Source: Candidatus Omnitrophota bacterium (lineage in GTDB: Bacteria > Omnitrophota > Gorgyraeia > 2-01-FULL-45-10). Taken from it: 51,622 bases of DNA. Of this stretch, positions 22,954 to 51,417 are shown one piece after another. The DNA is taken from NCBI GenBank assembly GCA_030695905.1, contig JAUYOL010000040.1, forward strand, positions 1 through 51,622. Reading direction: 5' to 3'. A program made the position numbers and the translations under genes. Below the pieces are notes generated by a model, which made no database searches, was not told the origin of the DNA, and saw nothing but the letters and a program-made list of their open reading frames with translations. Numbering within the stretch: the first letter of the stretch is position 1; every line of letters begins with the position of its first letter.

Positions 22954-24390
22954 TTAAATACCCATCATCTGTTTAATGGCGCCTTGGGCAAAAAGCGACG
23001 GATAAGCTATACATACGCCGCCGATAAGCGATAAGGCCGCGAGTAAGGCAACGCTGAATACCATTACCGGCGACCCTTCTTTTTCAGGAGCACCCTGCAG
23101 CCCGCCCAAAAATATCTTATTAAATATCCTGAATAGATAAAGGATTGTCAACAGCGCTATAAATATATAAGTGCCGACGAGCCACTCCTGCCCGCTGGCG
23201 GCAGCGCTTGCCAGGACCATGAATTTCGAGAAGAATCCTCCAAAAGGAGGCACCCCCATGACAGAAAAGGCGCATATTAGAAATGAGGCCGCCGTTATAG
23301 GCATCTTATTGAGAAAGCCGCCCATCTGGCTTATGTCTTTGGTCTTGGCATTCTGTTCCACTATACCGGCGCAGAGGAATAATCCCCCTTTTGCCAGGCC
23401 ATGCATCAATATAAATAATAACGAACCGGCAACTCCTATGGGCGTGCCTATCGCAAACCCTAAGAATATAAATCCTATCTGGCTTACAGTGGAATACGCG
23501 ATGATTCTTTTCATGTCAGTTTCAACCAATGCGGCGCCGGCGGATACAAGCGCGCTCAACGCGGCTAACCATGGCAGCGCAATATGCCACACCTGGCTAA
23601 AGGTAAATGTGGCGATAAATAACCTTGCGAATACATATACACCTATCTTTACAAGCACGGCCGCGTGGAGAAGCGCTGTTACTGGTGATGGGGCCACGCC
23701 TGCGTCGGGAAGCCATGTATGAAAAGGCAGTGTGGCTGATTTTGAAAGTATTCCGAACAGTATGAACATTACCACTATATTAGGTATGGGGTTATTCTGC
23801 AAAACTTCTTTTATTACAACCAGGTCGAATGAGCCGGTCTGTTGGAATATCATAATAAATCCGACCAGCATCACCAGCGAACCGAATACTGTTACTAAAA
23901 ATGCTTTGTCTGCCCGTAAAACATGCTTTGGCTCCCTGAAAAAGCCTATAAGACGCCAGCTTGCGATAGCCGTTATCTCCCAGAATAGATATATAAATAT
24001 AAGGTTGGAAGAAAATACTATGCCCATCATAGAGCCAAGGAATAGTGTTACCATAAGGTAATATTCGTTTTGATTGGTATAGTGGCTTATATAACCGAAG
24101 GAGTACAGGACTATTATCGCGCCTACCAAAGAAGAGACTATGGCCATGAATACCGCCAGCATATCGGCTGTAAGGGCAAAATTAAACCCCAGCGGAAATG
24201 GTTTTAATATCAATACCTTATTGCCCGACGCGACATGGGGTATAAGAAGGCATGATCCTACCAGGGAAACCAACACAAGGACTAAAGATGTCAGATTCCT
24301 TGCCCTGGTGGAAATAGCCCCTATAAAGGGAAGAAAAAGCGAGCCTACTATAGGAACAAAGACTACTGCTAATAAAATATTGGATTCCAT
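22954..24390 (-). CDS. Antiporter-like hydrogenase subunit, NuoM/MrpD type
   Basis: The 478-residue protein has about 14 helices and the motifs LFWEITAIASWRLIGF (with the key Glu), TLPFHTWLPDAGVAPSPVTA followed by LLHAAVLVKIGVYVFARL, and IAYSTVSQIGFIFLGFAIG. It is the first gene of the 12-gene hydrogenase operon. Its ATG follows a terminator-like hairpin and a GAGG at short spacing, so expression of the whole complex may be decided in this leader. Confidence 0.93.
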   Translation of the reverse strand: MESNILLAVVFVPIVGSLFLPFIGAISTRARNLTSLVLVLVSLVGSCLLIPHVASGNKVLILKPFPLGFNFALTADMLAVFMAIVSSLVGAIIVLYSFGYISHYTNQNEYYLMVTLFLGSMMGIVFSSNLIFIYLFWEITAIASWRLIGFFREPKHVLRADKAFLVTVFGSLVMLVGFIMIFQQTGSFDLVVIKEVLQNNPIPNIVVMFILFGILSKSATLPFHTWLPDAGVAPSPVTALLHAAVLVKIGVYVFARLFIATFTFSQVWHIALPWLAALSALVSAGAALVETDMKRIIAYSTVSQIGFIFLGFAIGTPIGVAGSLLFILMHGLAKGGLFLCAGIVEQNAKTKDISQMGGFLNKMPITAASFLICAFSVMGVPPFGGFFSKFMVLASAAASGQEWLVGTYIFIALLTILYLFRIFNKIFLGGLQGAPEKEGSPVMVFSVALLAALSLIGGVCIAYPSLFAQGAIKQMMGI

Positions 24391-24412
24391 CTGGCCTCAT
24401 TAACAACAAAAA

Positions 24413-24441
24413 TGTCTTCTAACGCGTCCCGTCAGAAGACA
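24413..24441 (-). promoter_or_regulatory. Leader hairpin/attenuator of the hydrogenase operon
   Basis: Minus strand: TGTCTTCT (24434-24441) pairs perfectly with AGAAGACA (24413-24420), the inner ACG/CGT also pairs, and a U-rich tail ATTTTTGTTGTT follows before the ATG. Upstream of it, TTCTAAC (about 24444-24453) can pair with GTTAGAA in the hairpin's 3' arm, a possible antiterminator. The same leader, with compensating G-U pairs, precedes the pyrophosphatase gene (38862-38890). Confidence 0.7.
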
Positions 24442-24465
24442 TATTAGTGTTAGAAATCAGATGAT

Positions 24466-24499: not shown

Positions 24500-25900
24500 T
24501 CAAGCTCGTTTTTGCCGCGCATACTGGTCGTATGTTTTTTTCAGATTGAGAAAATCTATAGTTCCCGCAACCTTAGCTATACTTATTATCCATCTGTACC
24601 ATAAAAACTCCATACATGCCAGTATGCCAAGGTACATTACATATTTTAACCGGAATAACCTTTGCCGCTCGACAAAAGCCAATATGGAAAGCAGCGCCAC
24701 GAATGCCTGCGACAGAAGCATAAATAAAAAGAAAGCTGCAAAGATATTCCAATTAAGGACGCCTAAAATAGCGCCGACGGCTACCAATGCTATGCTTATG
24801 ATCTCGACAAAGACACCGAGAACCTCGTATAGGACAAAATATGGCATAGCAAGAAACCCGAACATCCCATACCGGGGGTTTAATGTCATATATTTATATC
24901 TCCACACAGTTTCATCGACAACTCTCTGCCAGCGATTGCGCTGAGATATCAAAGATTTTATGTCACCGGGCCCTTCTGTCCATCCCACATAGTAAGGCAA
25001 CATTATTATCTTGTACCCTTTTTCTCTATTCTTAACTATATAATCGTGGGCTCTGAATGTCAGCTCTATATCTTCGCATGTAAACTCGGCGGAAAATCCT
25101 CCAAGTTCATATAACACATCCTTGCGCCATACACCAAATCCGCCGGCGACATTGGGCATAGCATTGTATCTCGACCATGCCAGACGATTGCCTATAAATG
25201 AGCGCATATACTCTATATTCTGGTAGGCGATAAGCGGATTGTAAGAAAAACTATGATCGACAACCATCCCGTCTTTTATCTTAAATCCATTTACCAGGCC
25301 GAAAGAGCTCCCCGCGCCTATGATCTTATCAGGTTCTTTCCCGATTTGCGCCATGACGGTCAACAACGCATCCCTCTCAAGTATGGTATCGGCATCGACA
25401 ACACATATATAATCATATTTGGCCAGATTTAGGCCCGCATTGACAGCGCCCGCTTTTTTATTCCCCGCGTCCTTGTCTATAACCGTAACATTGGGACACA
25501 GCTTGCTCTTTAGTATCCCGCGGACCCTACCGTCTTTGTAATGTTTTATATACATAGAATCTGTCGGAATGAGTTTAAGTATCCCATCCATAATATCCAG
25601 AGTCTTATCCGTAGATCCGTCGTTTACAAGAATGATCTCGAATTCGGGGTAATTCAGGCTAAGAAATGATTTTAAGGAATCGGCTATCCAGTCTTCCTCG
25701 TTGTGAACGGGCACCACTATGGAGACCGGAAGCTTTAGAGGGGAAAGATAAAATAACGAATAATTCTCATCTTCGCCCTGCAGCGCTCTTTTCATTTCTT
25801 CGATGGAGCCGACGAGGGCGAGAAATATGTAATAAACCGTAAGGATCAAAAAGTATCCGATTGAGGCGATAAATACGGTATAAATAATCTTAGGAATCAT
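24500..25900 (-). CDS. Membrane glycosyltransferase, family 2
   Basis: The 466-residue protein has an N-terminal helix (about 8-33), a GT2 catalytic domain (about 55-330) and four or so C-terminal helices. Motifs are VPVHNEEDWI, VNDGSTDKT, CVVDADTIL (metal-binding DAD), CEDIELTFRAH (acid base) and QRNRWQRV. This is the processive-synthase layout of PgaC, cellulose synthase and E. coli YaiP. It should build or extend a polysaccharide and export it. It is the last gene of the receiver/YvcK/epimerase operon, four bases after the HEAT gene. Confidence 0.9.
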   Translation of the reverse strand: MIPKIIYTVFIASIGYFLILTVYYIFLALVGSIEEMKRALQGEDENYSLFYLSPLKLPVSIVVPVHNEEDWIADSLKSFLSLNYPEFEIILVNDGSTDKTLDIMDGILKLIPTDSMYIKHYKDGRVRGILKSKLCPNVTVIDKDAGNKKAGAVNAGLNLAKYDYICVVDADTILERDALLTVMAQIGKEPDKIIGAGSSFGLVNGFKIKDGMVVDHSFSYNPLIAYQNIEYMRSFIGNRLAWSRYNAMPNVAGGFGVWRKDVLYELGGFSAEFTCEDIELTFRAHDYIVKNREKGYKIIMLPYYVGWTEGPGDIKSLISQRNRWQRVVDETVWRYKYMTLNPRYGMFGFLAMPYFVLYEVLGVFVEIISIALVAVGAILGVLNWNIFAAFFLFMLLSQAFVALLSILAFVERQRLFRLKYVMYLGILACMEFLWYRWIISIAKVAGTIDFLNLKKTYDQYARQKRA

Positions 25901-25904
25901 AAGG

Positions 25905-27140
25905 TCATACCTTTTCCATTTTCATCAAAATTTCAAGGGCCTTTGTCCGCGCTTCAGGCTGGAGTTCACTCAAAACCGCGTCGAGCCCGGCGTGGGCCCT
26001 TGATCTGACCACGCCCTGTAACAGCCGCACTTCGGCATCTTTCGCTTTGCCTGACACTACTTCATTTAATAACTCTGCCAGATAGCCGGAATTCTGCAGG
26101 GCAAGAACCGAATATTTTTTCGGCACTTCGTCTTCACCGGCAAGAAATTTTTCTATATACGGCAGCGAGGCCTTTATATGTTCCGTCATCACGGTCTTAA
26201 CCGTCTCGACCACCGACCATGACGCATCGTTAATAAGCCCTATCACCTGGGGTATGGCCGCGTCCTCCATGACCTTGGACAACGCGAGGACCGCGCGGCT
26301 TCTCACCAGCCAGTTATCATCCTTAAGACGCGCCACAAGCGCCGGTCTTGCTTCGATGTTCCGGGTCTGGCGCAGGCAATCACAGGCAGCGGCGCGCACT
26401 TGAGCAGACTGATCATGCGCAAGTTTTTCCAATTTCTTGATATGAGCGGACGAAACGAACTTTGATAATAAGGTAAGCGCAAATAATCTTACTTTGGGAT
26501 CGTGATAATCTATCAATCCGGCAATATCATCGGCTATCTCTTTGGGGAAATCTTCAAGTATAGAGATGATCTTATATCCGCTCGCCGGATCCTTCTTTAA
26601 AAGATCTAACAGCACCCCGGCAGATTCAGGCGTTTTTATTTGCCCGAGTGAAATCATCGAAAAATACCCTATATCCTTGTCCTTGCTGTATATAAGCTTT
26701 TTAAGCAGAGCTACGGACGTCGCTGTCTGCGTATATCCAAGACAGAGCATCGCTTCTATCTTCTTCCACTTATTCCCTGACTTCGTTATGATATTTTCCA
26801 GAGCGGCAATATTATCCGGTTTTATAAAACAATTCCTGAAGAATCTTTGTTCTGTTTCATTAAAAAATGTGGTATCTATGTTTCTATTTGTTTCGATATC
26901 TATGTATTGTTGCGGCGTTATATCGCTAATTGAGGGCAAACAGACAGCGCTTGATGCTTCCTTATTGGCGAGTACTATTTCGTAGATATTATTTTTTAAG
27001 TCAAGGATGGCGCGGCGGCGCCTTTGCCACAAAAGGTCCTTGAAAAATATGGTAAAGAGTATAACTATATACGTAAGCGCTATTATCGCGAACAGCGCTA
27101 TGTTAACCTGCCAAACTACATCAGTATAATAATTATACAT
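25905..27140 (-). CDS. Membrane-anchored HEAT-repeat protein
   Basis: The 411-residue protein has one N-terminal transmembrane helix (about 10-33), a basic turn (WQRRRRAIL), and then a long alpha-solenoid from about residue 110. The HEAT-like units include KIEAMLCLGYTQTATSVALL, VRAAACDCLRQTRNIEARPALV and VRSRAVLALSKVMEDAAIPQVI. Such solenoids are scaffolds. Lying between the YaiO-like barrel and the glycosyltransferase, it probably assembles or positions the synthase. Its ATG follows the barrel gene's stop with no gap. Confidence 0.85.
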   Translation of the reverse strand: MYNYYTDVVWQVNIALFAIIALTYIVILFTIFFKDLLWQRRRRAILDLKNNIYEIVLANKEASSAVCLPSISDITPQQYIDIETNRNIDTTFFNETEQRFFRNCFIKPDNIAALENIITKSGNKWKKIEAMLCLGYTQTATSVALLKKLIYSKDKDIGYFSMISLGQIKTPESAGVLLDLLKKDPASGYKIISILEDFPKEIADDIAGLIDYHDPKVRLFALTLLSKFVSSAHIKKLEKLAHDQSAQVRAAACDCLRQTRNIEARPALVARLKDDNWLVRSRAVLALSKVMEDAAIPQVIGLINDASWSVVETVKTVMTEHIKASLPYIEKFLAGEDEVPKKYSVLALQNSGYLAELLNEVVSGKAKDAEVRLLQGVVRSRAHAGLDAVLSELQPEARTKALEILMKMEKV

Positions 27141-28004
27141 TTAGAACTTTGCCGATACGGCGTAATATATGGAGCGCTTTATAAATTTCGGGTCTTCTGT
27201 CCCGTAAGTGTACCCAAACCTGCAGCTTATACCTTTATATAAATTAATGCTAATCCCCGTAAAGAGTATGTACCCCTGTTCATCGGCGGCATCGGACCCG
27301 TTTATATCGTACAATCTGCCGCCGAAAGCTATGCCGCAGTTCCAGCGTAAAAATTTAGTTATCGCAAAATCGCCCTTGAATACACCGATAGAGGCGGTAT
27401 CGTGGCTCTCCATGTAGCTGGCGCCATAATTCGCGCTTAAGTAGCTGTCACCAAAATAATAAATGAGGCCGGGTGTAACCAGATGCGTATCGTCGCCCAG
27501 ACCTCTGTAAAGACGATATGTATAGCCTACTTGGCCGAAAAGATTTTCATAAATCCGGTGACCGTACTCGACTATGGATTGCAATTGATATAAGAACATC
27601 TTGCCGCCCCAACCCAAGCCGCCTTCAAAATGCGCATATTGGTCCTTATCCATATTTATATATGCGCCCAGACTTGCCGCATTGTTTTTATTATCAAACC
27701 TCTCCTGTTGAGAAATAAACATGTAGCCTGTGATATTTTTGCGAGTATAGCCGAAGGTATAGTCAAGTTCATTCCAATGCCCCCTCTTTGTGCCCTGAAG
27801 CACGTCGCCGGGTTCGTAATAGGCATCGTAATACCAACTGTCTTTCCCCGGTTCTTTCGCTGCCGTCACAGCAAGCGGCGGGGTTAGTTTCTGTACCAGC
27901 TGCTCTACATCGGCCTGTTCAGCGGCGTGAGCAGAAGAGCACGCCACTAAAAAAGATATCGCCATTGCGAAGAGGCCCTTAGGCCAACGAAGCAATCTAA
28001 CCAC
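27141..28004 (-). CDS. YaiO-like outer-membrane beta-barrel protein
   Basis: The 287-residue protein has a signal peptide (cleavage near SSAHAAEQ, about 27) and alternating amphipathic strands to a C-terminal phenylalanine (YYAVSAKF), the outer-membrane insertion signal. Content and length match the YaiO family; in E. coli yaiO lies next to the glycosyltransferase gene yaiP, a parallel to this operon. It may be a polysaccharide exit pore or a surface protein. The start is GTG, overlapping the receiver gene by eight bases. Confidence 0.8.
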   Translation of the reverse strand: MVRLLRWPKGLFAMAISFLVACSSAHAAEQADVEQLVQKLTPPLAVTAAKEPGKDSWYYDAYYEPGDVLQGTKRGHWNELDYTFGYTRKNITGYMFISQQERFDNKNNAASLGAYINMDKDQYAHFEGGLGWGGKMFLYQLQSIVEYGHRIYENLFGQVGYTYRLYRGLGDDTHLVTPGLIYYFGDSYLSANYGASYMESHDTASIGVFKGDFAITKFLRWNCGIAFGGRLYDINGSDAADEQGYILFTGISINLYKGISCRFGYTYGTEDPKFIKRSIYYAVSAKF

Positions 28005-28392
28005 GTTTTTCCCTGTATTTATCGGCTATTTCTATCGCGCGCGTTATATTTTTGATCTCTTCGGAAATATCCTGGCGTGACTTTACTATAAAACCCGTGG
28101 CGTTTAATTTTCCCGCCAATTTTATCCTCTCTTCATTGGAAAAAGCCGTAACCATGAATACCGGAAGTTTTGCATCAAGTGCGCGGATTTGTTTTAATAC
28201 TGCGATCCCGTCTGTGCCGGGCATCATTATGTCCAAAAGTACTGCGTCGGGCTTATCCGTCTTTACCGTATTCAGGGCATCTTCGCCGCTATTCAAGATT
28301 ATCACATCGTAGCCGCTTGCTTCGAGCCTGAGTTTCATCAGTTCGGTAAAATCTATTTCGTCATCTACTACCAATATTTTTTTCTTTGCCAT
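27997..28392 (-). CDS. Stand-alone response-regulator receiver domain
   Basis: The 131-residue protein is a receiver domain only. The acidic pair D10-D11, phospho-acceptor D54 in VLLDIMMPG, T82 and K104 are all present, so it should be phosphorylatable. There is no output domain, so it acts by protein contact (CheY/Spo0F style). AAGGAG before the ATG supports the start. It lies between the receiver-epimerase and the YaiO-like gene. No histidine kinase is in the window. Confidence 0.92.
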   Translation of the reverse strand: MAKKKILVVDDEIDFTELMKLRLEASGYDVIILNSGEDALNTVKTDKPDAVLLDIMMPGTDGIAVLKQIRALDAKLPVFMVTAFSNEERIKLAGKLNATGFIVKSRQDISEEIKNITRAIEIADKYREKRG

Positions 28393-28402
28393 AATAAACT
28401 CC

Positions 28403-29779
28403 TTAAATCCTGTCCAGTTCGGCGGGATTCTCTTTAAAATATAGATTCATCTTTTCCAATATCTCCTTTAGTGTTGTCTTCGGCACAGTTCCGGATATTC
28501 TCTTCAATTTGGCGAGGTCGGGTACCCTCTTTTTTATATCCTGGAAACTCGCACCGTAATATTTCCGGTATGGCTCAAAGACTATTTTCGACGAACTTTT
28601 CGTAATCTTCTTTATTTCCTGCGCCAGATCCTTGATGGATATTTCATTATGGGCCCCTAAATTTATTACTTCGCCGTTCGCGGCGTCGAGGCCTGCCAGT
28701 TTTATGATTATATCTATGGCATCATCCACATAAGTGAAGCATCGAACCTGCTTTCCGTCGCCATAAACCGGTATGGGTTCATTCTTAAGCGCGAATTTGA
28801 AGAAGCGCGGCATGACCATGCCATAGCTGCCAACCTGGCCCGGCCCGACGACATTGAACAACCTTACTATTGTAATCGGAAGGCCCCTCTCCTTATAGTA
28901 CCCTATAGCAAAAAACTCATCCAGCAATTTTGAGCATGCATAACTCCACCTATTTATGTCCGGAGGCCCTATAACAACATCGTCGCCTTCTTTGAAAGGA
29001 TACTTTTTCGACTTTCCATATACTTCTGATGTAGATGTAATCAATGTCTTGACGCCTCTTGCGGACGCATATTTCAAAACTATCGAAGTCCCTATGGTGT
29101 CGTATATGATGGTTTCAAGGGGTTTGTCGACAACGTTTTTTACTCCCACCGTTGCCGCAAGATGATATATAAGATCGCACTCTTCAACTGCCTTGCCTAT
29201 TATTGTTTCATCGGTTATAGAGCCAGTTATAAGATGAAAATTCTTATTATCAAGCGTACCTTTTAAATTTTCAAGGCTGCCGGAAGAAAAATCATCTATG
29301 ACGGCAACATTGTACTTTTTATCCAGAAGCTTTCTGACAAGTGCCGAACCGATGAAACCTGCGCCTCCGGTAACCAAAATATTCTTTACTATCCTGGTTG
29401 AAGCCTTTGCCCTTTTGAGAACGGCGTTTATCCTGGCAACAAGCTCCTTGCCCTCATAAGGCTTTGTCATGTGGTCATCCAGGCCCATCTCCAGGCCCTT
29501 AACCTTGTCGGAATGCTTTAAGTTAGCTGTAAGCATTATTACCGGCAGGTCCATATTCTTCTTATCGGCGCGCATCCTTCGTAAAACCTCATACCCGTCC
29601 ATGCCTGGCATAAGACAGTCCAAAATCACCAGGTCCGGTTTATCGGTCTTTAAAAAGTTAAGGGCTTCTTCACCGCTGTTTGCGCCAGAAACTTTAAAAC
29701 CTTCGGCCGCAAGCCTGGTTGAGATTAAGTCTACCACAAATTTTTCATCGTCTACAATGAGTATATGATCCTGACTCAT
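28403..29779 (-). CDS. Receiver domain fused to a sugar-nucleotide epimerase/dehydratase
   Basis: With the start at 29779 (CAGGAG nine bases upstream, ATGA overlap with the YvcK-like gene) the protein has 458 residues. Residues 1-125 are an intact receiver (D10, D11, D54, T84, K106). Residues 133-450 are an extended short-chain dehydrogenase: TGGAGFIG (137-144) binds NAD(P), and YACSK supplies Tyr280 and Lys284. The catalytic half resembles UDP-glucose/GlcNAc 4-epimerases or UDP-glucuronate decarboxylases. The junction is short (KRAKAST), and no frameshift is needed, so this is a true fusion. Phosphorylation controlling sugar-nucleotide supply is my inference. Confidence 0.92.
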   Translation of the reverse strand: MSQDHILIVDDEKFVVDLISTRLAAEGFKVSGANSGEEALNFLKTDKPDLVILDCLMPGMDGYEVLRRMRADKKNMDLPVIMLTANLKHSDKVKGLEMGLDDHMTKPYEGKELVARINAVLKRAKASTRIVKNILVTGGAGFIGSALVRKLLDKKYNVAVIDDFSSGSLENLKGTLDNKNFHLITGSITDETIIGKAVEECDLIYHLAATVGVKNVVDKPLETIIYDTIGTSIVLKYASARGVKTLITSTSEVYGKSKKYPFKEGDDVVIGPPDINRWSYACSKLLDEFFAIGYYKERGLPITIVRLFNVVGPGQVGSYGMVMPRFFKFALKNEPIPVYGDGKQVRCFTYVDDAIDIIIKLAGLDAANGEVINLGAHNEISIKDLAQEIKKITKSSSKIVFEPYRKYYGASFQDIKKRVPDLAKLKRISGTVPKTTLKEILEKMNLYFKENPAELDRI

Positions 29780-31113
29780 TTTAGATGCTCCTGTCTTATT
29801 ATTTTTATTAAACAATCGGCTATTTTTTGGTTGTCGTGACGAATCAGCTCTGTTTCGTGCGCAACATCCGCTATTATAATTTTTGCGTTTGTGATCCTTT
29901 TAATTTCAGAGATGTCGCCCACCTGAACAGGGAATTGCTTTTTTCTGGAATATCTTAAAAGCGCCCCTTTTGAAAGGGAACTGTTATCTGAAATTATAAC
30001 ATAATCGAGGCAATCCTGTTTCAAATATTTCACGATTTCTTTTATATGGTCCAAAGCGGTAAAATCAGAAGTTTCACCCGGCTTTGTCATGATATTGCAT
30101 ATATAGAATTTTTTAGATTTTGTTCCTGTGACAGCCTGCCGGATATCGCCTATAAGAAGATTTGTTATAACACTGGTATAAAGATCTCCAGGCCCCATTA
30201 TAACAATGTCGGCGTTAATAATAGACGCGAAGGAATTAGGATTGCATTTCGGGGGCGGCTCGTGCCAGCATTTTTTTATGCGTAAATCCGGCGGCCTTCC
30301 CTTACCCAGGTCAATATTACTCTCTCCTTTTATCACGGTCCCGTCTTCGAACAAAGCGCATAGTTTTGATTTTGTTATAGCTACCGGAAGCACTATACCC
30401 TGTATATTCAGTATATCGCTAAGACCGCTTACTGCCAGTGACATGGAACCTTTTATTTTTGTAAGCGCCGTTAATAATAAGTTGCCTAAAGAGTGCCCGA
30501 CAAAACATCCTCCTTCTGTAAACCGATATGTCATTATATCATTCATGGCTTCCGGCGCGGTGGAAAGAGCGACAAGTGAGCGCCTCACATCTCCCGGAGG
30601 CAGCACCCCGAATGATTCCCTTAGCTTGCCCGATGAACCGCCATCGTCCGTAGTGCTGACTACTGAAATGGGTAGCACGTCCGGCAAATTTTTTAGTCCC
30701 ATTAAAAGATTGAATAAGCCCGTGCCTCCACCCAGACAAACGATCTTTTTTCTATGATTAAGTATTGCCGTTAACCGAAGGCTTAACTCACGGAAATTAT
30801 AGGGTTTTAATATGTAATCTGACGATCCTATTTCACCGGCTTTTAGAACAGTGGAAATATTTTTTATGCCCGAAAAGACTACAAACTCTTTTTTTGACTG
30901 TTTTAGAAGTTTGAAGATTTTTTGCAGGGAACTGGATTTTAAAGGGTAATGGTCTGCGTCGAAAAGCACTATATCTATGCTTTTTTTGCGTAGTACAGAT
31001 ACTATCTCTTGATAATCTTGCGCTATTTCGATTTCAAGGGCAAGTTCGGATAAAGCAGGTTTGATTTCATCGACAAAGTTCTCTGAGCCTATAAGCAGGA
31101 ATTTTTTGTACAC
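29776..31113 (-). CDS. Receiver-like domain fused to a YvcK/CofD-type protein
   Basis: Residues 123-445 match YvcK (gluconeogenesis factor, CofD-like fold): CLGGGTGLFNLLMGL (127-141), STTDDGGSSGKLRESFG, PPGDVRRSL and IMGPGDLYTSVITNLLIG. B. subtilis YvcK is about 317 residues and binds UDP-GlcNAc. The extra N-terminal 120 residues have a receiver fold with D52 or D54 in VLFDAD and K103 in LKPYN, but the acidic pair is replaced by S10-E11, so phosphorylation is doubtful. The start is GTG with GGGAGGGGG upstream. It is the first gene of the six-gene operon. Confidence 0.9.
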   Translation of the reverse strand: MYKKFLLIGSENFVDEIKPALSELALEIEIAQDYQEIVSVLRKKSIDIVLFDADHYPLKSSSLQKIFKLLKQSKKEFVVFSGIKNISTVLKAGEIGSSDYILKPYNFRELSLRLTAILNHRKKIVCLGGGTGLFNLLMGLKNLPDVLPISVVSTTDDGGSSGKLRESFGVLPPGDVRRSLVALSTAPEAMNDIMTYRFTEGGCFVGHSLGNLLLTALTKIKGSMSLAVSGLSDILNIQGIVLPVAITKSKLCALFEDGTVIKGESNIDLGKGRPPDLRIKKCWHEPPPKCNPNSFASIINADIVIMGPGDLYTSVITNLLIGDIRQAVTGTKSKKFYICNIMTKPGETSDFTALDHIKEIVKYLKQDCLDYVIISDNSSLSKGALLRYSRKKQFPVQVGDISEIKRITNAKIIIADVAHETELIRHDNQKIADCLIKIIRQEHLK

Positions 31114-31140
31114 GATACGGCCCCCTCCCTACAGGAGCGT

Positions 31141-31146
31141 ATTATA
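31141..31146 (-). promoter_or_regulatory. Promoter of the receiver/YvcK polysaccharide operon
   Basis: The minus strand reads TATGATATAAT, identical to the SUI1 gene box. Predicted +1 is about 31134, giving a 21-base leader with a strong Shine-Dalgarno. The -35 region is poor. Confidence 0.6.
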
Positions 31147-31155
31147 TCATACAAC

Positions 31156-45864: not shown

Positions 45865-48800
45865 TTATGCGGCTTCTGCAAACTTATGTGCCGCTTCGTG
45901 GAGAAGTTCAATTCTTTCACGCTCGACTATACCGCAAACTTTGCCGAGAGCATCTATTATCTTTTTAACTATTTCAGTTATGTCGAAAGTAGTAACGCCT
46001 TGTAAGTCAGTAACAGGGTCACCGTTGACCTTGAAATAATAGTATCTTGCCGTATGAACCTTAGTTCTTATATCAGCGATTGTGTCAGCGTAGAATATTC
46101 TTTCATTCTCTGGCTTACCTTGATTTAACTCATCTATTAATGCCCTTTGCCTATCATTGGTAGCTATTACAGCGACTCTCATGCCGGATTTTACCAGCTT
46201 TGGTAGGAGCACTCCTAATCCATTGTCAAATGTAACTTGTTCCGAAAAAATGAATGTTGCCTTGTCTTGCTCAATAACATTCTCTATTTGTAGAAGGTGC
46301 AATAACTCCGCGACAAAATCGGCAACTTTTGAATTATTCTCATGCCACTCCTGTGGAAGTATTTCTACGGCTTTTCTTACGGCCGTGGCTAATGATTGCG
46401 TACCGGGTAAAAGCTGTCCTACGACTTTTGGATGCCCAGCAACTATTTCTAAAACTTGGTTATCTTTTAAAGTTTCCGATCTGAAAGGTAATATATTTTC
46501 CCCGTTAATTTTAACAGCTACTCCTCCTGATTTTTCAACAAAATAAGCACCTGCTGAAACATCCCAGATAGGACGTTTTGCATCAACATAAGCCATTGGA
46601 TTTTCTCTTCCTCCCATTGCAACCATAGATAAGGCCATACCTGATGACTTACCAATACGATCTAACTTCAAGCCTTCAATATTCAACGATCCAGTAATGT
46701 CTCTATAGACTAGCACCGTGCGCCCATTAAAATTATTTTCGGATTGATCAAAGCTTATTTGTTTCCTATTAAAAGCGGCTCCTTCTCGAATTTCAGAAAC
46801 AAAGAACCCGTTCTCTAATTCAGAAGCCTCAAAGATAGCGCCTTTCTTACCACTAATAACTTGTTCTGGAGCAATAAAAAATGCTGCAATCACATCACCA
46901 TGATATATTAATGAAAGGACACTCCCAAAATAATTACTGGCAGGATTAATAAACTGACGGGTACCATCGATAGGATCAATAACTATCTCAAATGGTGAAT
47001 TATGATTTCTTTGATTAATACTTTCAATTCTTTTCCCTAAATTTCCTTCGGTTTCCTCTGCTATAACTCGAAAAGGGAAGCCTAATTGTTTCTCTAATTG
47101 ATCTAAAATATAAGTCTGGACTTCAAAATCAGCTTCAGTAACAACTGATTGATTGGCAGATTCTTGCCCAGGCTTATATTTAACCTTGACGTTAGCTTGA
47201 ACACGCCACTTATTTATAATCATTCCTACATCTAGCATTGTTTTTTTCATTACTGGCATCGCTGTAGCAAGTTTTTCCATCACCTCGGAAGGCAATTTTT
47301 CGCGAGACCTGGTTTGCGGTGTTAAACGCGCACTTTCATTAGAAGCTAAAAATTTTAATTGATTAACCGCAAACAACCACGCACCTACGCCTTTTTGTCC
47401 TGAGAGCAAAGATGCAGCAACCACATGTGGATTATCAGTATCAAATCGGTCCAACGAAATTCCTCCTTCGCGATTAATCAGTATTTCACCATTTCCACCT
47501 GTTTGACCTTGGTCATCTAGCGTAATGAAAGGCTTTCCTTCCAGTAATTCACCAAATTTTTGAATAGAGAGGCCCTTATTAGCACCTTTTGGCTTAATTT
47601 CAATGCTCTCGCCCGACCAAGAAAATTCTACTTCAATTTTTCTAGACGTAAAGAAAGATAAAATCTGCGATTCCAAATGGGATATAAAGACCTTGTCTAA
47701 TCCTACTTCATTAGCACGTGGGATCTGAACTGTTATTGTTCGCGACTTGAAGATAATAGCAGCAAGATCTTGATAACGCACCTGATATTTATCTCGATAG
47801 TAATCATTTAATATCGGGAAAATAGTTTGATAAAAAGCCTGCTGAGATTCTGCCGATCCAACTGGAGATGAAGCACCAAAATCATAAATAATGTTTGGGT
47901 TGCCTACATTAAATCCATAACTAGAATCTTCGGGGAAAACATCTATATAATTCAAGGCCCATTGGTCAACTCCTAAGGCTGCTCGAATTCTATCGACCAC
48001 TTCTTTTACATCTCTGGCACCACCGACTTGCTTCCCTGAAGCATTAAATCTTCTAAGACTTGGATTAATTTCATAAGCACGGGAGGTGGTAAATCCAATG
48101 CGAACCCGTCCTTTCAATTTTTTTGCTATATTTGATATTGCCTCATCAGGAACAATTCGGTTTTCATCTGTCAGCGAGTAATCAATGTCTGTCAAGATTC
48201 CATACCAGCTACATTGCTTAAGATTTTCAAATCGGCTATGATGATTGAACGCATTAAGAATTGCTTGTTTAAGTTCGTCTTTACTTATAGAGGACTTGCT
48301 ACCCAATACAAAATGAATATCTGGCGCAACCGTAAATTCCAACATTCGTTGGGTGTAAAGCGCGAGTCTGACCTCATTCACCTCAAAGATCATTGGTTCT
48401 TTTATCTCGGAATGTTCTTTCACCCATTGCTTCAGATTTTGCGTTTCTTCTTCATTAAGAGCCGATAGCGTATTCACATTAATTTGCCCCAAGGTAACAA
48501 ATACTTTAGCGGCCTTTCCTGCTTCCGGAACTTTCCACTTCAGATCAAATCCTGCTTCCATGAAAGACTTTTGAAGATGACTTAACCCGCCTCCTTCTAC
48601 CTCCCCTACTAAAATGATGTTACCTTCGCATCCATCACTAAAGGCAACTTTCTTAAAATGTATTTTGTAACCTTGAGCCATTTCAATGGCCTGAATAACT
48701 TTTTCAAAATCAACCTTTGACAAATTCTCTTCCTTAACAGGCTGATCTTGAGACCTTAACATAGCTCCCACAGTCGCATGCGAAAAATCGCTATTAATTC

Positions 48801-51408
48801 TAAATTTACCGTTAGTAACAGCGAGGATCTCTTCTCTCCACCTCGTAAGAATGTTTCCAGATGTCCCAGTTATAGGATGTCCAGCCACAACAGTTGCTCC
48901 ATAATTCGTTTTTGCATTTTTCTTGGTTAGCTCTTCAACTTTGGCAAGGTCTAGGCCCAGGATTTCAGCATTCCTTTCCTTCGCTGGACGGACACCTTGC
49001 TGCTTCTTTTCAAAGGCATCGATTAAAGCAATTGCTTTTGAATGGGCGTCGCGAATCACTGATCTTTTTGCTTCGTCACTCTCAATGGATAGTAGCGATC
49101 GAAAAACCCTATCAATCTCTCTTCGAAAATCTCCAATGACAAACATGGCACTAATTTTTAAAAACTCAAGCTGCTCTTGTGCGCCAGTTTGACTTAATTC
49201 GGGACTTATTGGAAAGTTTTCGCCTGTCAAAAACATTCTAAGATTTTCTAAAAACTTATCTGTATTTCCTTCCCTCAAATCTGATATTACCAAGTCCCAT
49301 TGTAAGCCAACCGGTAATACGCCACTGTCATTCTTTTGAATGAGTCGGATACAGTTTACGCTTTCCGCAAAAAATACATTTGAAACATCTTGAGCTCCTA
49401 AGATATCAAAATAACCACCTAATAGCCTGAGCTTCTTTTCGATTTCTCGTAATGGCATTCTGCTATCTCTTATTGCTACCGTAGGAGTATAAACATCAGG
49501 ATAATTTCTTTCCATCGTATATATATCTTTTTGAATTTCTGAATATAAATCGAGGATTTTAGGCATAAGCGTCATTGATTCTACGGCCAAGGATAAACTA
49601 ACTAAACGAGATAATCTTTTCCGGATTTTTTCAGGAGCTATAAGTCCATATCTATTTGTTTGAGTAAATTGCTGTGAATGATTTCCAAGGATAGCATGGA
49701 TGGTCGCCTCGTCTTTTTTCTCTTCCATTAATACATAGTTCTTATAATTCCATTCTAGTCTATGGAGCAAATTAGCTGCTAATTCATTCATATCCTCTGG
49801 ACTATCTAGATCAAAATCCTGCAAAAAGAGTTTTGGAATATACACCACTAATCGTGAGCGACCAATGCCGATGGGACGTGCGACTTGATTTTGACTATCT
49901 ACAAATAGAATCGGCATAGGAGAATCGACTTCCACTATAGTAATCAGGCTTTTAAGCCACCCGATCTTATCAACGAAAGTATTTAGCTCATCTGTCAATC
50001 CATCGGCTTTTCTCTTGGCTACCCACCACTCAATAATACCAAGCGCTTTATCTATTTTTTCTTTGGCTCCCGGGGCTTGTGATTCTACTAATCTGCCCTC
50101 TCCTAGCCTTGTAGTCTTGGCGAATATTGAATCATTGCTTTTGTAAAGATAAGCCATAGGCCAAGATGCGGTTGATCGATCTCCCCTTATGCGATAAGAC
50201 TGGCTGGGTTTTGTTAACATTAAATTATTTTCAAAATTACTATCACGGAAAATACCCTGAATAATATTTTCAATGAAAGGCTTTGCCTTTGGCGATTCCC
50301 TGCCTTCTTTAAAAAGAATGCCCAGCGCAATAACGTATTTTTCTGGCTGAATGTCTTCTTGGCTACGCCTTCTTATTAGTCTTCTATTACCCAAATGTAG
50401 CCTGTTTCTAAGAATTCCCCATATTACATCTGATGAAATAGCTTTTAATGCCTCGGCTTCTCTTCTTGTTTCAGATATTTCAGCTTCCGTGAATACAAAA
50501 TCGTTGGATAATTCTTTAATCAAAATATCGAGAATATCCTTGTAATCCGGATGCGTTTTTCCATCTTTCAATGCTAGCCGCCAAAGATCGCTCGATGTTT
50601 TATGTGCAATGAGCTCCTCTAATTCAAGAGCAAGACTCCCCGTATTTTGTGGTTCTTGTGCCATCGCATAATCTCTATTCATTACATCTGGATGCATGGC
50701 AAAAGTAAGGCTTGCAAATTCGTTAGCTAAAGATTGGTTTGTGATATTATTGCTCTGTTCTATTTGTTGCTGTATTTGGAGATTGTCTTTTTCAAATCTT
50801 TCTCGCATCGATATTATAAAAGCGATTATTTCTTCCTCGGTAGTTAATTTTTGCCCTTTAAATTCCTCATCAAATAATTCCTTCGCCCTTGTTGACCGCG
50901 CCCTTATTTCATGAAGTAAGCGGCCGATTATTTTCTTCCTTCCTTCTTTTGAATCTTTTTCACTTTCTAAGGCGAACACGGTAACATAGGTGCCTGCGTG
51001 GCCCCATGCTTTTTGTCCATCAAATATCGGCAGTTCATTTTCATTTTTTACGAATATTATTTGAACCTTCCCGCCAGCGGAAGCAAGGGTTGTTTTAAGC
51101 CTAGTGAGCATACTATTAGCGCCACAAGCATTTATAGAGCGCATAAATTCTTCTTCAAGATATGGGATAGCCGAGAGACTTTTGGCTCTGCCGGAATTTT
51201 GCTTTATGAATTCATCGATAGGTTCTTGATGTGAGGCAAGTCGTTCTTCCATCAAATTGTGCATTTCTTTGTAGACTTTTGGATTGCCGGCAAGAGGAGC
51301 GAGGATGTCTGAATCAGCCAAAACGACTGTGCTGGCGTAAAATAGGCATACCAAGACCATTGCTATAGGCTTTAATAAAATGCTATATCTCTTTCTATAT
51401 CCAACCAT
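45865..51408 (-). CDS. Giant exported multidomain protein with an IMPase-like domain
   Basis: From the ATG at 51408 the protein has 1847 residues. It starts with a basic stretch and a signal or anchor helix (about 8-30), then ADSDILAPLAG. Residues 30-800 are helical and unassigned. At H877 an HATV motif with FVTLG at 970 suggests a decayed 2H-phosphoesterase-like fold. D1074-I-D-Y-S-L-T-D resembles a HAD-type DXDXT site. Residues about 1380-1690 are inositol-monophosphatase-like: EET, then DPIDGTRQF (from D1478) and WDVSAGAYFVEKSGG (from W1615), so the metal ligands are present. A last region (about 1700-1847) is unassigned. The ATG is favoured over the GTG at 51417 because the promoter places +1 near 51411. 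Numbers are approximate outside quoted motifs. Confidence 0.8.
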   Translation of the reverse strand: MVGYRKRYSILLKPIAMVLVCLFYASTVVLADSDILAPLAGNPKVYKEMHNLMEERLASHQEPIDEFIKQNSGRAKSLSAIPYLEEEFMRSINACGANSMLTRLKTTLASAGGKVQIIFVKNENELPIFDGQKAWGHAGTYVTVFALESEKDSKEGRKKIIGRLLHEIRARSTRAKELFDEEFKGQKLTTEEEIIAFIISMRERFEKDNLQIQQQIEQSNNITNQSLANEFASLTFAMHPDVMNRDYAMAQEPQNTGSLALELEELIAHKTSSDLWRLALKDGKTHPDYKDILDILIKELSNDFVFTEAEISETRREAEALKAISSDVIWGILRNRLHLGNRRLIRRRSQEDIQPEKYVIALGILFKEGRESPKAKPFIENIIQGIFRDSNFENNLMLTKPSQSYRIRGDRSTASWPMAYLYKSNDSIFAKTTRLGEGRLVESQAPGAKEKIDKALGIIEWWVAKRKADGLTDELNTFVDKIGWLKSLITIVEVDSPMPILFVDSQNQVARPIGIGRSRLVVYIPKLFLQDFDLDSPEDMNELAANLLHRLEWNYKNYVLMEEKKDEATIHAILGNHSQQFTQTNRYGLIAPEKIRKRLSRLVSLSLAVESMTLMPKILDLYSEIQKDIYTMERNYPDVYTPTVAIRDSRMPLREIEKKLRLLGGYFDILGAQDVSNVFFAESVNCIRLIQKNDSGVLPVGLQWDLVISDLREGNTDKFLENLRMFLTGENFPISPELSQTGAQEQLEFLKISAMFVIGDFRREIDRVFRSLLSIESDEAKRSVIRDAHSKAIALIDAFEKKQQGVRPAKERNAEILGLDLAKVEELTKKNAKTNYGATVVAGHPITGTSGNILTRWREEILAVTNGKFRINSDFSHATVGAMLRSQDQPVKEENLSKVDFEKVIQAIEMAQGYKIHFKKVAFSDGCEGNIILVGEVEGGGLSHLQKSFMEAGFDLKWKVPEAGKAAKVFVTLGQINVNTLSALNEEETQNLKQWVKEHSEIKEPMIFEVNEVRLALYTQRMLEFTVAPDIHFVLGSKSSISKDELKQAILNAFNHHSRFENLKQCSWYGILTDIDYSLTDENRIVPDEAISNIAKKLKGRVRIGFTTSRAYEINPSLRRFNASGKQVGGARDVKEVVDRIRAALGVDQWALNYIDVFPEDSSYGFNVGNPNIIYDFGASSPVGSAESQQAFYQTIFPILNDYYRDKYQVRYQDLAAIIFKSRTITVQIPRANEVGLDKVFISHLESQILSFFTSRKIEVEFSWSGESIEIKPKGANKGLSIQKFGELLEGKPFITLDDQGQTGGNGEILINREGGISLDRFDTDNPHVVAASLLSGQKGVGAWLFAVNQLKFLASNESARLTPQTRSREKLPSEVMEKLATAMPVMKKTMLDVGMIINKWRVQANVKVKYKPGQESANQSVVTEADFEVQTYILDQLEKQLGFPFRVIAEETEGNLGKRIESINQRNHNSPFEIVIDPIDGTRQFINPASNYFGSVLSLIYHGDVIAAFFIAPEQVISGKKGAIFEASELENGFFVSEIREGAAFNRKQISFDQSENNFNGRTVLVYRDITGSLNIEGLKLDRIGKSSGMALSMVAMGGRENPMAYVDAKRPIWDVSAGAYFVEKSGGVAVKINGENILPFRSETLKDNQVLEIVAGHPKVVGQLLPGTQSLATAVRKAVEILPQEWHENNSKVADFVAELLHLLQIENVIEQDKATFIFSEQVTFDNGLGVLLPKLVKSGMRVAVIATNDRQRALIDELNQGKPENERIFYADTIADIRTKVHTARYYYFKVNGDPVTDLQGVTTFDITEIVKKIIDALGKVCGIVERERIELLHEAAHKFAEAA

Positions 51409-51417
51409 AGTACACAC

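Follow-up and report, generated by a model that had tools for sequence, protein, structure and literature searches.

What are three receiver domains, two of them fused to proteins of sugar-nucleotide metabolism, doing in one operon with a membrane polysaccharide synthase? The question is raised by six minus-strand genes spanning 31113 to 24500 of a 51,622-nucleotide stretch of DNA from a Candidatus Omnitrophota bacterium (contig JAUYOL010000040.1, or C40, of assembly GCA_030695905.1, a genome of 1.82 Mb that is 97.5% complete), the whole of which is referred to here as the window. From 5′ to 3′ they encode a receiver (REC) fused to a YvcK/GlmR-like protein (REC-YvcK), a receiver fused to an extended short-chain dehydrogenase/reductase (REC-SDR), a lone single-domain receiver, a YaiO-family outer-membrane β-barrel, a HEAT protein and a family 2 membrane glycosyltransferase (GT2). 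We estimate at roughly 60% the probability that the operon encodes a synthase-dependent surface-glycan system which two-component signalling controls post-translationally and in which a GlmR-like protein with a pseudo-receiver manages the UDP-sugar supply. Because other families have the same arrangement, and Myxococcota part of it, the receiver-wired operon is probably a genuine, hitherto undescribed on/off control of polymer production.

An earlier note on this DNA had described six genes with overlaps or gaps of at most ten bases, in agreement with the successive gaps of −4, 10, −8, 0 and 4 bp, although the operon end that it quoted, 31146, should be 31113. The lone receiver (27997..28392) carries the full phosphorylation set (D10, D11, D54, T82 and K104), and the acidic pair, D54, Thr/Ser and Lys are kept in all homologues (eight sequences, one cut by a contig end). 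Its gene overlaps by 8 bp that of the barrel (27141..28004), which has a signal peptide-like N-terminus and scores 25.8 bits against the Pfam YaiO cut-off of 23.9 and 40 bits against the TIGR04390 cut-off of 32. The HEAT protein (25905..27140, gap of 0 to the barrel gene; HEAT_2, 4.5e-27 in Pfam) consists of an N-terminal membrane helix, an RRRR stretch and a predicted HEAT superhelix, and because the single helix is followed by RRRR, the positive-inside rule makes the solenoid probably cytosolic. The GT2 (24500..25900, gap of 4 to the HEAT gene; Glycos_transf_2, 2e-26 in Pfam) contains the processive-synthase motifs DADT, CED and QRNRW and has hyaluronan synthase and cellulose synthase as relatives in the PDB; its top NCBIfam models are PgaC/IcaA, yet it falls far below the PgaC cut-off. 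In Pfam searches, no PilZ or DNA-binding output domain was found in the six proteins and no periplasmic tetratricopeptide repeat (TPR) scaffold in the operon; TPR proteins adjoin it in some relatives.

REC-YvcK (29776..31113, GTG start) combines an N-terminal receiver-like domain (residues 1–118) with a YvcK/GlmR (CofD-like) UDP-sugar-binding domain (residues 121–440; CofD in Pfam, 8.9e-81; TIGR01826 in NCBIfam, 301.7 bits against a cut-off of 196). Residues T131, N340, Y388 and R425 align with the UDP-GlcNAc residues of structures 2HZB and 2O2Z and are invariant in 22 homologues; in Bacillus subtilis YvcK, UDP-GlcNAc binding by T14, N218, Y265 and R301 has been shown by mutation (PMC5482804). 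For Listeria GlmR, uridyltransferase residues have been predicted (PMC10128056); they correspond to D156, D157 and N318 of the window protein and are kept there. B. subtilis GlmR is known to stimulate GlmS directly (PMC7525490). An ordinary housekeeping YvcK, adjoining HPr and enzyme I, is also present in the window genome.

The N-terminal domain of REC-YvcK scores below the Pfam gathering threshold (Response_reg, 3.7e-6). AlphaFold2, with a 22-sequence input, predicts residues 1–118 to fold as (βα)5 with block pLDDT values of 80–94, and Foldseek matches the model to the PhoB and ArcA receivers (target TM-score of about 0.8) and to the YvcK structure 2O2Z (0.79). The acidic pair, whose loss from this receiver had been noticed earlier, is absent in 47/47 homologues, among which the acceptor Asp is present in 38, the Ser/Thr in 37 and the Lys in 21. 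As the acidic pair is lost and a receiver fold is predicted, the domain is, judged from sequence and model, a pseudo-receiver, and one that is likely to be insensitive to phosphorylation. Its best-conserved parts are the acceptor Asp and a β5-α5 stretch, K/R-P-Y/F-N-x-R-E (PYNxRE).

The receiver of REC-SDR (28403..29779, residues 1–125), in contrast, is intact, with the acidic pair, acceptor Asp, Thr/Ser and Lys kept in every homologue (five sequences), so that the lone receiver and this one are the two that retain all phosphorylation residues, as had been claimed (Response_reg matches of 3.6e-25 and 2.7e-30 in Pfam). Its gene most likely starts at the ATG at 29779, which is preceded by AGGAG and overlaps REC-YvcK by 4 bp, while the listed TTG at 29815 lies upstream, inside the YvcK gene. 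The enzyme domain keeps the catalytic features Y280xxxK284 and TSEVYG and is closest in sequence to UDP-glucuronate decarboxylase/ArnA/LegB-type proteins, below all equivalog cut-offs. Pfam and NCBIfam agree with the domain identities first given to the other five genes, but the supposed epimerase should rather be called an extended SDR and putative nucleotide-sugar enzyme, whose likeness to UDP-glucuronate decarboxylase and ArnA is by similarity only.

Such a set of domains could mean that the receivers are mainly docking modules that tether precursor enzymes and synthase at the membrane as a metabolon, with phosphorylation of minor importance. A YvcK receiver that has no metal-binding pair but is kept across its clade, with conservation peaking at the acceptor Asp and PYNxRE, fits this explanation, as does a HEAT protein, a typical binding solenoid. 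In the other two receivers, however, no phosphorylation residue is lost in any homologue, and these intact receivers have linked histidine kinases; we regard docking as the principal function as unlikely. A histidine kinase gene lies directly upstream of the lone receiver at three loci (L072, L074 and L075) and of REC-YvcK at another (L122), and a linked kinase was counted also at L117. In genome G317, the complete six-gene set stands directly behind a 1368-residue PAS histidine kinase and a receiver.

All six genes are found in the same order in two other genomes, G023 and, from another family, G317, in neither of which are the flanking genes those of the window. An apparent loss of the lone receiver in G023 was dropped when tblastn recovered the gene behind a false open reading frame. 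Neither fusion is unique to the window genome: REC-YvcK occurs in 42/384 Omnitrophota genomes of the phylum sample (27/384 in the class sample) and in three Myxococcota metagenome-assembled genomes (MAGs), and REC-SDR in 6/384 genomes from three families, with no REC-SDR found on viral contigs. Other genera and families share both fusions and the gene order, which therefore reflect more than chance.

The conserved core is smaller than the operon. A core of REC, YaiO, HEAT and GT2, judged by its HEAT protein, is present in 18 of 384 class genomes, and the lone receiver is intact in 13 of 16 evaluable core clusters (in G005 and G025 the cluster runs into a contig end); in G012, REC directly precedes HEAT and YaiO is missing. 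REC-YvcK and REC-SDR are optional additions to this core. The idea of one six-gene system therefore holds in part: the genes are kept together in G023 and G317, and partly elsewhere, but do not form an obligatory unit.

This raises the possibility of two separate things, a REC-HEAT-GT2-YaiO glycan core and a precursor or envelope-homeostasis pair (REC-YvcK and REC-SDR), co-transcribed by chance or horizontal transfer and each answering to its own kinases. The core cluster is often found without the pair, and most REC-YvcK genes are located away from it. Identity between the window and G317 is 77% for the SDR and 65% for REC-YvcK but 52% for housekeeping YvcK, a difference that fits, without proving, horizontal transfer of the block between lineages. 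The REC-SDR carriers do not group together in the GT2 tree, so that the association either spread between lineages or was kept in several. REC-SDR, however, was never seen outside the core, and in all five evaluable cases it stands within a REC-YaiO-HEAT-GT2 cluster whose lone receiver is intact. The lone receiver is intact in none of three clusters with an unfused SDR (Fisher p = 0.018; the sequences are related and the value is indicative only); in G364 and G112, for example, the core comes with an unfused SDR but lacks any receiver.

Further evidence against two unconnected parts comes from G020, a genome of the same family, whose GT2 is sister to that of G023 (support 100/98). Its SDR is 79% identical and begins exactly at its own domain, with no receiver; of the lone receiver a remnant with a broken frame is left, 11 residues from the N-terminus and 19 from the C-terminus; and REC-YvcK is missing. 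SDR, YaiO, HEAT and GT2, by contrast, are all intact. The loss of all three receivers in this genome, together with the correlation between fused SDR and intact lone receiver, suggests that the three receivers work together.

Further finds of REC-YvcK, in Myxococcota and close to HEAT-GT2 pairs whose GT2 belongs to distant lineages, likewise speak against a chance pairing. Loci L149 and L184 have a HEAT protein and a GT2 from a distant lineage downstream of REC-YvcK. The GT2 proteins of L134/L184 and L185 were considered as orthologues and rejected as too distant, so that the linkage is a recurrence of the part list and not of the same operon. In Myxococcota, where overlapping high-GC frames make exact gene starts uncertain, a related GT2 accompanies REC-YvcK at two of three loci: L256 has GT2, an intact REC, a HEAT protein with a transmembrane segment and REC-YvcK within 13 kb, and at L185 REC-YvcK adjoins a divergent HEAT-REC-GT2 set, again with an intact REC and a transmembrane segment in HEAT. 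At the third, L182, REC-HEAT and REC-YvcK stand together and the GT2 match is on another contig. With all of this considered, we judge the two-part explanation slightly less probable than docking.

Fifty REC-YvcK proteins form a single clade apart from housekeeping YvcK (support 100/100); the four that are linked to REC-SDR group together as one clade (100/95). Several lie in other polysaccharide loci, with PelG (L125), Poly_export (L037) or a UDP-sugar dehydrogenase (L039 and L040) as neighbours. That the operon is an ordinary exopolysaccharide operon with incidental receivers and no special control logic gains some plausibility from the abundance of receivers in these genomes, but the retention of a single-clade fusion across the phylum, recurrent linkage with one set of partners and the conservation of receiver active sites make it very improbable.

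The part list, the active sites, the linkage of the genes and their correlated presence are shown by the sequences. For the surface-glycan system under two-component control that we favour, the following mechanism, in which the effects of phosphorylation, the polymer and a complex are inferred, can be proposed. A histidine kinase acting in trans would phosphorylate the lone receiver and REC-SDR; the phosphorylated lone receiver would bind the cytosolic HEAT solenoid and gate the GT2, and REC-SDR would be activated or recruited in step, so that one precursor is made. The pseudo-receiver, not itself phosphorylated, may pair with the intact receivers or with HEAT via its conserved β5-α5 face, so placing the synthase under GlmR-type control by UDP-GlcNAc sensing, activation of GlmS or accessory uridyltransfer, and the polymer would leave through YaiO. 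Control would not be transcriptional; no output domain points to transcription.

In known synthase-dependent systems, regulation involves PilZ and cyclic di-GMP (c-di-GMP), and a periplasmic TPR scaffold is present. The operon resembles the Pga, Bcs and Alg systems in combining a processive membrane GT2 with an outer-membrane barrel, here one with a putative export role, and precursor enzymes may be included in those operons too. It differs in its proposed cytosolic regulator, which joins an intact receiver to a membrane HEAT protein and in which the phosphorylated receiver would take the place of PilZ/c-di-GMP, in lacking the TPR scaffold and in having precursor proteins fused to receivers. 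REC-YvcK shares the CofD-like fold and the UDP-GlcNAc and putative uridyltransferase residues of YvcK/GlmR (CuvA), but is a separate clade with an N-terminal pseudo-receiver. FrzS and the ALR domains likewise have a receiver fold without the acidic pair, whereas the output of REC-YvcK is a UDP-sugar-binding GlmR-like domain and its acceptor Asp is mostly kept. The SDR, similar to UDP-glucuronate decarboxylase/ArnA/LegB enzymes in sequence and in its TSEVYG and YxxxK motifs, differs from them in its intact N-terminal receiver.

The receiver-YvcK and receiver-epimerase fusions had been called unfamiliar, and our search of the open-access literature (subscription papers and annotation databases lay outside it) turned up no report of a fusion between a receiver and either YvcK or a sugar-nucleotide SDR, nor of the whole combination. 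Searches of that literature for YaiO with HEAT and a glycosyltransferase, YaiP with YaiO, or receiver, epimerase and exopolysaccharide returned nothing relevant, and the text of a pseudo-receiver review does not mention CofD or epimerase outputs (PMC12632262). The individual parts are known; the mode in which they are controlled stands a fair chance of being new. If the favoured reading is true, a large uncultured phylum uses receivers to wire sensor kinase, sugar-nucleotide supply and polymer synthase to one another directly, with neither transcription nor a second messenger in between. The operon is also a natural case for two questions, the function of pseudo-receivers, whose activation mechanisms have been called a mystery (PMC12632262), and the regulation of GlmR/YvcK activity. 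G020, with enzymes kept and receivers lost or broken, and the Myxococcota loci make the reading testable. More tentatively, and at somewhat less than even odds, the operon may represent a new class of post-translational control in Omnitrophota and Myxococcota, in which one kinase signal, in place of c-di-GMP, is read simultaneously by a REC-HEAT synthase complex, by REC-SDR and by a GlmR paralogue that senses UDP-GlcNAc and is reached via a constitutive pseudo-receiver.

Several points weigh against the favoured reading. We know of no proven export role for YaiO barrels; the core clusters mostly occur without REC-YvcK and REC-SDR; and there is no histidine kinase in the window, with about nine elsewhere in the genome. 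The receiver loss in G020 concerns one genome, an 86% complete MAG, in which the absence of REC-YvcK is deduced from an intact contig at the site and a negative genome search. Many REC-YvcK genes are in non-glycan contexts: in family f8 (L118, L123, L126 and L127) their regular neighbours are genes for NUDIX, acylphosphatase and NAD-dependent DNA ligase proteins, and in another Omnitrophota class (L168–L179) they occur with AAA protein and HD or HD-GAF genes. As its neighbours include these f8 genes, a PAS histidine kinase and the polysaccharide genes named above, the role of REC-YvcK is wider than the six-gene operon.

Other features of the REC-YvcK loci include a histidine kinase/response regulator pair beside the gene at L176 and L178, in the class of L168–L179, and a radical SAM/SPASM protein with a fused GT2 domain, adjoining REC-YvcK at L142:3730-5901. 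At L244:7293-10064 (G000:C36), a UDP-glucose/GDP-mannose dehydrogenase is split by an in-frame intein with a LAGLIDADG match, inserted at the catalytic cysteine motif (GPGVGGH/C...HN/CIPIDP).

The operon likely starts in the 42 bp gap that separates it from a gene for a resistance-nodulation-division (RND) pump (31114..31155, minus strand), which contains an extended −10 (TATGATATAAT) and a strong GGAGGGGG ribosome-binding site. At its 3′ side lies a terminator-like hairpin (24412..24442, minus strand; 13 bp stem, T-run, z = −5.9). Just upstream of the hairpin, within 24493-24412 (minus strand), is a perfect σ70-like promoter (TTGACA-16-TATAAT with a TG extension), and a NADH-dehydrogenase/antiporter gene starts downstream, at 24390; promoter and hairpin, which have no Rfam match, form a possible attenuated leader or small RNA. 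Elsewhere in the window, 45865-51417 encodes a protein of 1850 residues whose sole recognised domain is an inositol monophosphatase near the C-terminus.

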